From Armatimonadota bacterium (lineage in GTDB: Bacteria > Armatimonadota > HRBIN16): a stretch of 64,000 nucleotides of DNA. The position numbers were made by a program, and so were the translations under genes. This document shows, one piece after another, positions 15,279-18,300 of the stretch (position 1 is its first letter; each line of letters opens with the position of its first letter). The stretch spans positions 534,839 through 598,838 of the forward strand of contig BPGT01000001.1 of NCBI GenBank assembly GCA_026003175.1, in the 5' to 3' direction. The notes below the pieces were generated by a model. That model was not told where the DNA came from, made no database searches, and was given only the letters and a program-made list of their open reading frames with translations.

Positions 15279-15372
15279 AACCTCTCCCCCTTCCCCTCTC
15301 CTACGAGGAGAGGGGAGCCGCGCGTCGGACGCCCCCTTCCCTCGCAGGAAAGGGGGGCAGGGGGGGTAGGTT
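15279..15372. repeat. Single copy of the ~100-bp C-rich repeat
   Basis: Matches the unit of the tandem array at 17793-18290: ACCTCTCCCCCTTCCCCTCT, a gap around GCGAGGAGAGGGG-like complement, then CCCCCTTCCCTCGCAGG and its complement. The two halves are each an imperfect inverted repeat. Confidence 0.75.
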
Positions 15373-15476
15373 TCTCCCCAACGGGTCAAAGTGATGCCAT
15401 TCACTGTTTCGACATACCAGCGAAATGCCCTGCAGATACAGGGCACCGGTCGTCCAACTGCCACCCTCTGAAACCT

Positions 15477-15525: not shown

Positions 15526-16422
15526 CTACTTCAGCAATATCCCGCCCAGCACCGAGCCATCAGCAGCGTCAATCCATACGGCTTCCTTGCCAAAATACAC
15601 CGCGTACGCGAGGCGGGCGCGATAGGGTACCTGCGGTGGATACCTTTTACCACCGAACGCGCCATTGGGGTAGACATACCCTATCTCTACACGCCCCGTA
15701 TACTGTCCCTGATGCGGACTGCGGTGCATCTGGTACCAGTTGGTGTAAACTTGCTTCGCCTTCTGCACTGCATCGTTCTGAGAAATGCTGAGGTCATGCG
15801 ATTCTATCAGCGTGTCTAGGCGTCGCCTAAAGTACACCAGCCTCCCGTCTACAGGGTCTACGGTTACCACCACTTCACCACTCTCGCCGAGAAACGAGTA
15901 GCCGAAGTAGCGCACGTCAAAAACGGCGGTAATTGTTCCTGCGCGATTGGCATCGCCGTTGCTTGTTTCTCCTTCAGCTACCATTCGCAACCGCTTCAGA
16001 TAAGCCCCCTTCGGTAGTCCGAGGCGCTGAGCCAGTTGCCAACAGTATTGTTCGGCTGCATCGCGCGAAGCAATCTGCGGTTGGCGGTCACGCCCTATTC
16101 GCTTCACCTGCTCGTATTCGCGAGCGTCGTTGCTGAAGCGATACACTTGCCCGTTCCGGGCATCTACGCGGAAGGTGTATTGCCCGGGCCAGGCAACATC
16201 CCAGAATCTCCAGCCGTCGCTCCCCGTTCGCAGACGTGCTCTCTGCGTACCGGTGGCTGGTGGCAACTGACAGGTTTGGAGAAACCAGCTTGCCGCTGCG
16301 ATCGCTCGATCTTCACTAAGTTCTTCCGCCGAGTACTCTCCTCTTGTAGCAGTAACCAATACTGCATACCCTGTCGCCGCTACCAGTAAGGCAACGCCAA
16401 ACCAAAGAGCCTTGCGCTTCAT
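15526..16422 (-). CDS. Membrane-anchored PepSY-domain-like protein
   Basis: The 298-residue protein begins with a basic start and one hydrophobic segment (ALWFGVALLVAATGYAVLV), a signal anchor or signal peptide. The rest looks like two PepSY/YpeB-like units: AIAAASWFLQTC with DARNGQVYRFSN, then AVQKAKQVYTNWYQ with a final WIDAADGSVLGG. Alternating helix, then FRVDARNGQVY or VTVDPVDGRLVYFRRR, is the PepSY pattern. PepSY domains often inhibit or chaperone secreted peptidases. It starts 15 bases after a caspase-like protease gene on the same strand, with AAGGAGG 10 bases before the ATG, so the two are probably cotranscribed. An inhibitor or maturation role is inference. Confidence 0.65.
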   Translation of the reverse strand: MKRKALWFGVALLVAATGYAVLVTATRGEYSAEELSEDRAIAAASWFLQTCQLPPATGTQRARLRTGSDGWRFWDVAWPGQYTFRVDARNGQVYRFSNDAREYEQVKRIGRDRQPQIASRDAAEQYCWQLAQRLGLPKGAYLKRLRMVAEGETSNGDANRAGTITAVFDVRYFGYSFLGESGEVVVTVDPVDGRLVYFRRRLDTLIESHDLSISQNDAVQKAKQVYTNWYQMHRSPHQGQYTGRVEIGYVYPNGAFGGKRYPPQVPYRARLAYAVYFGKEAVWIDAADGSVLGGILLK

Positions 16423-16437
16423 TTTTGTGTAACCTCC

Positions 16438-17511
16438 TTACCACCAGAAGTGCGGAGCATAAACATCGGATCCCGTATACGCTCCGCTTAGACGGGTGTA
16501 GTAATCTCCCCAGACACTGGCATAGTCGCGCCATGGACCGGGGACGGGTTCAGGAGAGAAGTACTCTTCCACCATCTGGTTTCGCGCCTGATGGGCTGTT
16601 AAGCCATCTGCAAGCCCGCTCCAGAAAGCCGCAGCACAAGCTTGCGTCTTGCGAGAATCGACACTAATGTTCCATCCCACCACTGCCTGATTTTCGCACC
16701 AGTTGGTATCGTAGCCATTGTAATACGGCCACAGAAACACATTGAAACTGTTGTCTGTACCCGTCAGGCAGGCGTCAATGAAAACCAGGTTGATGGGTGG
16801 TAATCCTGTATTGAACGGTGGATAACCGGTTCCGACGGCGGCCTGACGAACAGGCAAAACATCCCCTGGCAAAATCTCCTCTATAACCCCCGTCAACTCG
16901 TCGGAGTCGCTGATAAACACTCCTACGTTTCCGTGCGTGTTGACATAAAACACCGTGCATGGCTCAATGTCATTAAGTACCATTTGCTTCGTCCAGCCGA
17001 GAGCCACACAAGTATGCGATACGTTGTGGTTCATGTACGCCAGGTACTCCAAAGAAGGGGGCACTCCTGCTGTGGGCGCGGAGGGGTCGTTCTCCCATTC
17101 GTTGCGCCCGTAAAGGGTGGCTTTGTTGTATACCTGCACGTACCGAGAAGCCGAGCCGGTTTGTCCTGCGGAGTCGGTACCCTCCGCGTAAATCTCCAGA
17201 TGGGTATCGTCTGGAAAATGCGTGCTAGCGAAACGAATGTTGAGGTACACGTATGGCATTGGGTAAAGTAGGCTCTGGTCGATAAGCGTTTCGCTGCCCA
17301 TGCGTAACTTCACTCTTGTTAGGTAGGCGTTTGGGGTGTTTGTGTAGAAGTGAGCCACTACTTCGCAACGTGTACCGCTAGCGTAGTTGGGCCACTCTGT
17401 TTTGCCCGGGAACGGTCCCCATAAGATACTCACTTGAACACCTGCAAAACAAGTTTCCGCAAACAGCAGAGAAAGAAAAACGCAGGCTAAAAAGCGAGAG
17501 ATTAACGTCAA
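16438..17511 (-). CDS. Secreted caspase-like (clan CD) cysteine peptidase candidate
   Basis: With the TTG start at 17511 the protein has 357 residues and opens with a clean signal peptide (ISRFLACVFLSLLFAETCFA, then GVQ). Residues about 25-130 look like an Ig/FN3-like beta domain (TRVKLRMGSETLIDQSLL, then LEIYAEGTDSAG). Residues about 170-320 resemble the caspase/gingipain/C13 core. TVFYVNTHGNVG gives the catalytic His193-Gly, and INLVFIDACLTG gives the DAC motif with Cys248. AVVGWNISVDSRKTQACAAA then AFWSGLADGLTAHQA resemble the later strand and helix of that fold. The start is chosen because the upstream small ORF ends in TGA overlapping this TTG (TTGA), a coupling arrangement, and because the signal peptide then sits at the very N terminus. 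Substrate is unknown. It lies in an operon with a PepSY-like gene. The motif match is good but I could not run a structure or profile search. Confidence 0.6.
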   Translation of the reverse strand: MTLISRFLACVFLSLLFAETCFAGVQVSILWGPFPGKTEWPNYASGTRCEVVAHFYTNTPNAYLTRVKLRMGSETLIDQSLLYPMPYVYLNIRFASTHFPDDTHLEIYAEGTDSAGQTGSASRYVQVYNKATLYGRNEWENDPSAPTAGVPPSLEYLAYMNHNVSHTCVALGWTKQMVLNDIEPCTVFYVNTHGNVGVFISDSDELTGVIEEILPGDVLPVRQAAVGTGYPPFNTGLPPINLVFIDACLTGTDNSFNVFLWPYYNGYDTNWCENQAVVGWNISVDSRKTQACAAAFWSGLADGLTAHQARNQMVEEYFSPEPVPGPWRDYASVWGDYYTRLSGAYTGSDVYAPHFWW

Positions 17512-17636
17512 AAGTCTGTCGTTCTTACCCCCCCCCTCATGCTGGGAGAGGCGAAGAGCGGTGCCGCCACCTGCACGCTGAGGCTCAGGATGCACACGGT
17601 AGCCAGTGTGCGCAGATACGGAAAGCGTCGTAACAT
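17508..17636 (-). CDS. Small secreted peptide (42 aa) coupled to the caspase-like gene
   Basis: ATG at 17636 lies 12 bases after AAGGAGG and opens a 42-residue frame: MLRRFPYLRTL, a hydrophobic stretch (ATVCILSLSVQVAAPLFA) ending in an ALFA-like cleavage site, then SPSMRGGVRTTDF. It is thus a signal peptide with a very short tail. Its stop overlaps the TTG start of the protease gene. A run of nine Gs lies inside it (17528-17536), a likely slippage site that could fuse the two frames. It may be a real leader peptide, a translational coupler, or the true N terminus of the protease gene after a frameshift. Confidence 0.5.
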   Translation of the reverse strand: MLRRFPYLRTLATVCILSLSVQVAAPLFASPSMRGGVRTTDF

Positions 17637-17719
17637 TTTGGTAAGCACCCTCCTTTGTAATGTTGTGAAAAGCCCTCTTGAGATTTTCGCCACACTGCGG
17701 GAGATGTGCTACTGGCTAC

Positions 17720-17748
17720 AGTATAGCACCTCCCTACACGCTTGTCAA
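17720..17748 (-). promoter_or_regulatory. Consensus promoter of the peptide/caspase-like/PepSY operon
   Basis: On the minus strand TTGACA (17748-17743), 17 bases, TATACT (17725-17720). Transcription would begin near 17713, about 75 bases before the small-peptide ATG. Confidence 0.85.
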
Positions 17749-17792
17749 GCATTTTGGCGGGGGTGGGGGGAAAAATTTTTTCTAAAGATTCC

Positions 17793-18300
17793 ACCTCTCC
17801 CCCTTCCCCTCTCCTGAGAGGAGAGGGGCACAGGCGCGGATGCCCCCTTCCCTCGCAGGGAAGGGGGTCAGGGGGGTTAGGTTACTAGACTTTAACCTCT
17901 CCCCCTTCCCCTCTCCTGCGAGGAGAGGGGCGCAGGCGCGGATGCCCCCTTCCCTCGCAGGGAAGGGGGTCAGGGGGTTAGGTTACCAAACTTTAACCTC
18001 TCCCCCTTCCCCTCTCCTGCGAGGAGAGGGGAGCCGCGCATCGGGCGCCCCCTTCCTTTGTAGGGAAGGGGGGCAGGGGGTTAGGTTACTAGACTTTAAC
18101 CTCTCCCCCTTCCCCTCTCCTGCGAGGAGAGGGGCGCAGGCGCGGATGCCCCCTTCCCTCGCAGGGAAGGGGGTGGGGGGGTTAGGTTACTAGACTTTAA
18201 CCTCTCCCCCGTCCCCTCTCCTGCGAGGAGAGGGGAGCCGCGCGTCGGACGCCTCCTTCCCTTGTAGGGAAGGGGGTTGGGGGGTTAGGTTCCAACACCA
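17793..18300. repeat. Tandem array of five ~102-bp C-rich repeat units
   Basis: Units start near 17793, 17895, 17996, 18099 and 18200, so the period is 101-103 bases. Each unit begins ACCTCTCCCCCTTCCCCTCT, carries an imperfect inverted repeat around TCCTGCGAGGA, then CCCCCTTCCCTCGCAGGGAA with its complement, and ends GGTTAGGTTACTAGACTTTA. Two internal segments differ between units (GCGCAGGCGCGGAT against GAGCCGCGCGTCGGAC), so there are two subtypes. It fills the space between divergent-free minus-strand genes: the PhoR-type kinase ends at 18369 and the caspase operon promoter is at 17720. Related single copies occur at 15279, 20371, 25337 and 32380. Confidence 0.9.

Follow-up and report, generated by a model that had tools for sequence, protein, structure and literature searches.

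A putative phase-variable operon encoding an exported clan CD peptidase and a PepSY-like partner in the Armatimonadota

Organization of the locus

The window analysed here, a 64-kb stretch of DNA from the 4.1-Mb genome of a member of the Armatimonadota, carries on its minus strand three open reading frames (ORFs) of 42, 357 and 298 aa, preceded by a promoter-like site (Table 1). An earlier note on this DNA had read these elements as a TTGACA-17-TATACT promoter driving genes for a secreted peptide, a caspase-like protease and a PepSY-like protein, and both the promoter-like site and the three ORFs were indeed recovered. The stop codon of the 42-aa ORF overlaps the TTG start codon of the peptidase gene (TTGA). 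The promoter region is conserved, as TTGACA-17-TACAGT, in a paralogous operon of the same genome (L011, described below). Near-identical GC-rich palindromic repeats of the CCCCTTCCCTGCGAGGGAAGGGGGC type were observed on both sides of the operon (window positions 15290-15380 and 17790-18200), and these may have contributed to its duplication or movement.

Table 1. Features of the operon, in window coordinates
Feature	Position	Strand	Details
Promoter-like site	17720..17748	-	TTGACA 17743-17748, 17-nt spacer, TATACT 17720-17725; 11/12 matches
42-aa ORF	17508..17636	-	ATG 17636, TGA 17508-17510; Shine-Dalgarno-like AAGGAGGG at 17648-17655
Proposed phase-variation repeat	17528..17540	-	ATG 17538-17540, then A, then G9 17528-17536
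357-aa predicted exported clan CD cysteine peptidase	16438..17511	-	TTG start in the G9 state
Predicted peptidase segments			Signal peptide ~1-23, Ig-like domain ~24-134, catalytic domain ~145-357
Predicted catalytic His193 codon (NTHGN)	16933..16935	-	Conserved among relatives
Predicted catalytic Cys248 codon (IDACLTG)	16768..16770	-	Conserved among relatives
Invariant Asp336, C-terminal GDxxTRL motif	16504..16506	-	Aligns with the GDP motif ending C25 peptidases
298-aa predicted membrane-anchored PepSY partner	15526..16422	-	Own Shine-Dalgarno AGGAGG at 16433-16438

An exported peptidase family between CHAT and C25

As judged from its sequence, the 357-aa protein is exported. The NTHGN and IDACLTG motifs previously attributed to it are both present. 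Each of the 43 near-full-length relatives with coverage of these sites retains their His193 and Cys248, which are also invariant in an alignment of 41 sequences; Asp336 and Tyr345 are likewise conserved in every near-full-length copy covering them. In clan CD peptidases, the catalytic His and Cys each lie behind a hydrophobic strand, on loops L3 and L4 (PMC4357240). The strand-His then strand-Cys order of the protease agrees with this arrangement, strands 187-192 and 241-246 of the structural model preceding His193 and Cys248, respectively. The model itself is poor (pLDDT 60, below 50 in the Cys loop) and confident solely in the N-terminal Ig-like domain. That domain, which had been proposed earlier and is supported by the model over residues ~24-129, was also the only part matched in fold searches (best rows with Z of 8.0-8.7 to SoxZ, PKD and CARDB domains). 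With so weak a model, the missing match to a caspase fold is no evidence against such a fold, and the assignment of the catalytic domain therefore rests on profiles and motifs.

Scans of the protease against Pfam and NCBIfam returned no family matches. When the catalytic domain was compared, profile against profile, with families collected from the same phylum, it aligned with CHAT (PF12770; 93% probability, E = 3e-7, 128 columns) and with C25 (PF01364; 90% probability, E = 1.9e-6, 140 columns), in both cases with the HG motifs and the Cys residues in register, and the C25 alignment closes in a shared GDxxx(R/K)(L/V) motif. Control profiles (shuffled, reversed and unrelated PepSY) reached at most 0.2% against CHAT and C25. 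In a profile search of the PDB, the CHAT protein 8tl0 was retrieved with an E-value of 0.0011 over a region spanning HG...AC. No member of the family passes the Pfam gathering cut-off for CHAT (1 of the 41 matched, at E = 0.11), and C25 likewise stayed below its gathering cut-off and is absent from the Pfam families listed. The caspases and metacaspases of family C14, considered as closest relatives, were rejected (1% probability over 21 columns, not significant). The earlier description of a caspase-like protease is thus supported as regards clan CD but not as regards kinship with classical caspases (C14), the nearest families being CHAT and C25.

These comparisons lead us to regard the protease as the representative of a real, undescribed family of predicted clan CD cysteine peptidases, which would lie between CHAT and C25 as a distant relation. 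Its HG...AC dyad blocks align with those of CHAT, but the domain is predicted to be exported behind an Ig-like domain, is paired with a PepSY protein and is often preceded by a repeat (see below), whereas CHAT proteins are typically cytosolic, of TPR or CARF type. With the C25 gingipains it shares predicted export, clan CD membership and an alignment that runs through the C-terminal GDP motif; the Ig-like domain, however, is N-terminal in the protease and C-terminal in RgpB. Moreover, gingipains are inhibited by their own N-terminal prodomain (PMC4357240), while the candidate inhibitor of the protease described here is encoded by a separate gene.

Homologues of the protease were found in 48 of the 291 genomes of the phylum with a broad profile (38 of 291 with a narrow one), often in several copies per genome. 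The named relatives of the protease belong to Armatimonadota metagenome-assembled genomes (MAGs) of Chthonomonadaceae, Fimbriimonadaceae and Chthonomonas. No homologue turned up in the nine congeners searched, and none was returned by a scan of genome contigs with the single protease sequence. Protein searches identified no relatives in phages, plasmids or viral contigs, and a wider scan of 397 relatives, a number exceeding the 291 genomes of the phylum, gave no match outside the phylum among the matches listed.

A PepSY-like partner and its persistence

The structural model of the 298-aa partner (pLDDT 77) is composed of three alpha-beta4 units. Fold and profile both support the PepSY assignment of this membrane-anchored protein made in the earlier note, which had counted two units rather than the three seen in the model. 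The model matches the C-terminal domain of Bacillus YpeB (5boi) with a Foldseek E-value of 3.9e-9 and a Z of 14.4 over 203 residues; the high rmsd (11.5 over the multi-domain chain) points to units that correspond individually but are placed differently relative to one another. Propeptides of M4 proteases, including that of vibriolysin, were the next and weaker fold matches, and a search with the partner profile retrieved the propeptide of thermolysin (E = 0.0037). The window partner falls below the Pfam cut-off for PepSY (PF03413; E = 0.17, 12.7 bits against 24), and 16 of 32 partners match PepSY at E<=1, the best at 2.6e-6. On its predicted structure, the partner is a PepSY/YpeB-type protein. 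It resembles YpeB and the M4 propeptides in predicted fold and in its tandem PepSY units, but it is paired with a cysteine peptidase, whereas YpeB accompanies the lytic enzyme SleB and the M4 propeptides a metalloprotease.

A partner gene from the multi-copy genome G019 (L063, 8578-9906) is split by a frame break into pieces of 330 and 112 aa. In the congener G001 (contig C48; L107, 3528-5054), an orphan PepSY partner, with no protease nearby, lies in one open frame with the preceding sigma-factor-like ORF.

A PepSY-like gene is located directly downstream of nearly every protease copy. With a partner profile built from the window's own genome and G019 only, an adjacent downstream partner was detected for 32 of 54 protease matches; a broad partner profile found one in 43 of 63 loci at E<=1e-6, mostly within ~100 bases, and ORF calling combined with the profile raised this to 51 of 68 loci (10 of 24 in loci outside profile building). 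Most of the remaining loci possess an overlapping downstream ORF with an ending that looks PepSY-like by eye; L051 and L056 have none. The pairing of protease and PepSY protein thus recurs across the phylum in the same order, but no counterpart of the 42-aa ORF, put forward as the first of three genes, was seen in the loci examined. We found no PepSY/caspase pair in the literature.

The two members of the pair appear to have unequal fates. The second operon copy in the window's own genome (L011; G000:C1, ~1351.9-1353.1 kb) retains an intact PepSY gene (68% identical) next to a protease reduced to two short C-terminal pieces. An internal deletion of the protease core, with the downstream partner still open, is found in L011 (3810-4022), L087 (4767-5480) and L086 (6453-6992); a copy from a Chthonomonas-like MAG is one in which the catalytic core is lost and the partner kept, and the congeners G001 and G005 carry a partner without a protease. 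Since partners stand alone or beside gutted proteases, loss seems to fall on the protease, a pattern that would fit a protective partner.

A foldase or tether, rather than an inhibitor, is the most serious alternative for the partner, and one to which we give a real but minor chance: the two genes would then form an ordinary pair around a secreted, nutrient-scavenging or surface-processing protease. The likeness of the partner to both M4 propeptides and YpeB leaves room for this reading, as inhibition is not the only function of PepSY-type propeptides in M4 proteases, which they also help to fold. However, the persistence of partners after the protease has been lost or gutted is easier to reconcile with an immunity-like role than with a foldase. 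The precedent of YpeB, a PepSY-containing protein hypothesised to hold SleB inactive at the membrane (PMC13393411), points in the same direction and, by analogy, makes inhibition of the protease by its partner plausible.

Frame-shifting repeats at the 5' end of the peptidase gene

The 42-aa ORF contains a tract of nine G residues (G9); no other G or C run in the 64-kb window reaches 8 bases. At this tract length, neither the ATG at 17540, four bases ahead of G9, nor that at 17636 is in the protease frame, while frame arithmetic places both there at G10 or G7. The in-frame product from ATG 17540 begins with MRGGGKNDRLLTLISRFLACVFLSLLFAETCFAG..., a textbook signal peptide by sequence. The 42-aa ORF thus ends where it does because of the G9 tract.

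Repeats are found at the same place in other members of the family. The 5' ends of protease genes carry G8-G12, C9-C15, T11, (CT)18, (CTTT)7, (TCGGT)6, (TCAGGGC)6 and (TCGGCGCA)4-5, located just before the signal peptide and ~90-170 bases ahead of the mature domain. The repeat-length cut-offs published for phase-variable repeats of Campylobacter (PMC6321876) were applied to one genome per species. A frame-shifting repeat was detected in 26 of 68 protease 5' ends, the other 42 copies having none by these cut-offs, versus 5 of 386 other ORFs of the same loci (Fisher 3e-19, a p-value weakened by kinship among copies). The same cut-offs gave 1 of 68 for partner starts; in the protease catalytic region, the count was 1 of 68. 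The final test leaves out T-runs upstream in G019, which are not within the reading frame. Repeat-bearing genes occur in 18 of 36 genomes, and the repeats found at this one position are unrelated in sequence; in one genome (G142; L053, L060), at least three protease copies share the 8-base TCGGCGCA in 4 or 5 units and others have no repeat. The tract lengths are those of the assemblies, which can be wrong.

Repeat units are of 1, 2, 4, 5, 7 and 8 bases, and units of 3, 6 or 9 were not seen at the protease repeats except as sub-patterns of CT and C runs. Furthermore, of 21 cases, 16 have their nearest upstream ATG in a frame other than that of the protease. Together, the absence of units in multiples of three and the usually out-of-frame ATG indicate phase variation, and the diversity of units argues for repeated independent origin despite the kinship among copies. 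We conclude from these sequence features that the protease genes with such repeats are probably contingency (phase-variable) loci. The window gene itself has the makings of an SSR contingency locus, with a frame-shifting G9 tract in its 5' coding part that exceeds the published length. No report of phase variation in Armatimonadetes was found in the literature.

The secreted 42-aa peptide proposed as a separate first gene finds no support in this comparison: with one G more, or two fewer, its ORF runs on into the protease, and other members of the family have equivalent repeats at the corresponding position. Most probably, the peptide is what the protease gene yields when OFF-frame, and the ORF would be the 5' part of that gene, a warning that short 'signal-only' ORFs ahead of secreted genes can be off-phase products. 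Alternatively, the ORF might encode a real leader or secreted peptide coupled to the peptidase gene through TTGA, with G9 incidental and the peptidase always translated from the TTG at 17511. ATG 17636 does have a good Shine-Dalgarno-like site, better than that of the downstream ATG; the ORF resembles a signal peptide, and the TTG that its stop codon TGA overlaps is where a second signal peptide begins. In addition, ATG 17636, once in frame, would yield a product with two hydrophobic segments, an odd feature that counts against the switch. Nevertheless, we consider such a leader unlikely, as the only G/C run of its kind in the window falls where other copies have unrelated frame-shifting repeats, and no leader peptide resembling the 42-aa ORF was seen in the loci examined.

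It is also rather improbable that the repeat length in the window is an assembly error and the gene simply in frame. Homopolymers are error-prone, and the 7-contig assembly suggests long reads; yet an error of this kind would leave standing both the enrichment across 18 genomes and the 5- to 8-mer repeats, and the 42-aa gene would be an artefact in that case too. We regard as very unlikely a mechanism by transcriptional slippage or programmed frameshifting, in which the peptidase would be produced at a constant low level with no heritable switching. RNA polymerase can indeed slip on a run such as G9, and most copies have a peptidase frame that stays open through the repeat. Repeats with units of 4, 5, 7 and 8 bases, however, occupy the same position; these are well suited to slippage of DNA but make poor sites for slippage during transcription.

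A model for the operon

We favour, as the probable though by no means certain explanation, a phase-variable operon for an exported CHAT/C25-like peptidase and a membrane-held PepSY partner that restrains it at the cell's own surface. Slippage at G9, near the start of the peptidase gene, would change the frame in which that gene is read. The allele sequenced here would have its proper ATG out of frame and would be OFF, or at low output through the overlapping TTG, translation stopping as the 42-aa peptide; at G10 or G7, the peptidase would be made with a normal signal peptide. The partner, having no repeat and its own ribosome site, should be expressible in both phases, although the OFF frame could lower its expression by polarity. 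Its most likely role would be to restrain the peptidase at the home surface, either as a propeptide acting in trans or as an immunity-like inhibitor. Scavenging as a public good, surface processing and competition are all candidate uses of the protease. More tentatively, one may envisage a phylum-wide toxin-immunity or kin-recognition system, in which the phase-variable protease would harm or process neighbours and the always-expressible PepSY protein would shield ON and OFF siblings alike.

Phase-variable precedents

The best-known SSR contingency loci are those of host-associated bacteria. In the present case, a little-studied and mostly environmental phylum appears to have gained frame-shifting repeats repeatedly, in the same gene and at the same place, with different sequences. 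Such recurrence of differing repeats at one spot strongly suggests that switching of a secreted protease has been selected for. A comparable case is NalP, a serine-protease autotransporter. In Neisseria meningitidis, this surface protease is switched by a homopolymeric tract in its coding sequence (PMC3723659). The likeness lies in a repeat tract within the coding sequence of a surface or exported protease; the NalP tract is polyC, whereas in the Armatimonadota the predicted protease is of clan CD, the repeat type varies between species and a conserved partner follows. The present analysis also names an undescribed clan CD family and offers a testable PepSY partner for a cysteine protease.

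Two further G9 tracts were observed in the window's own genome, just past start codons in L215 (1501-1534; G000:C1:701781) and L225 (~1452-1540; G000:C2:987626). The ORFs behind them begin with signal-like N-termini, MKICKLTRGGAIILHKW... and MRGGVITASALFS..., respectively, which suggests that this genome may encode additional phase-variable exported proteins.
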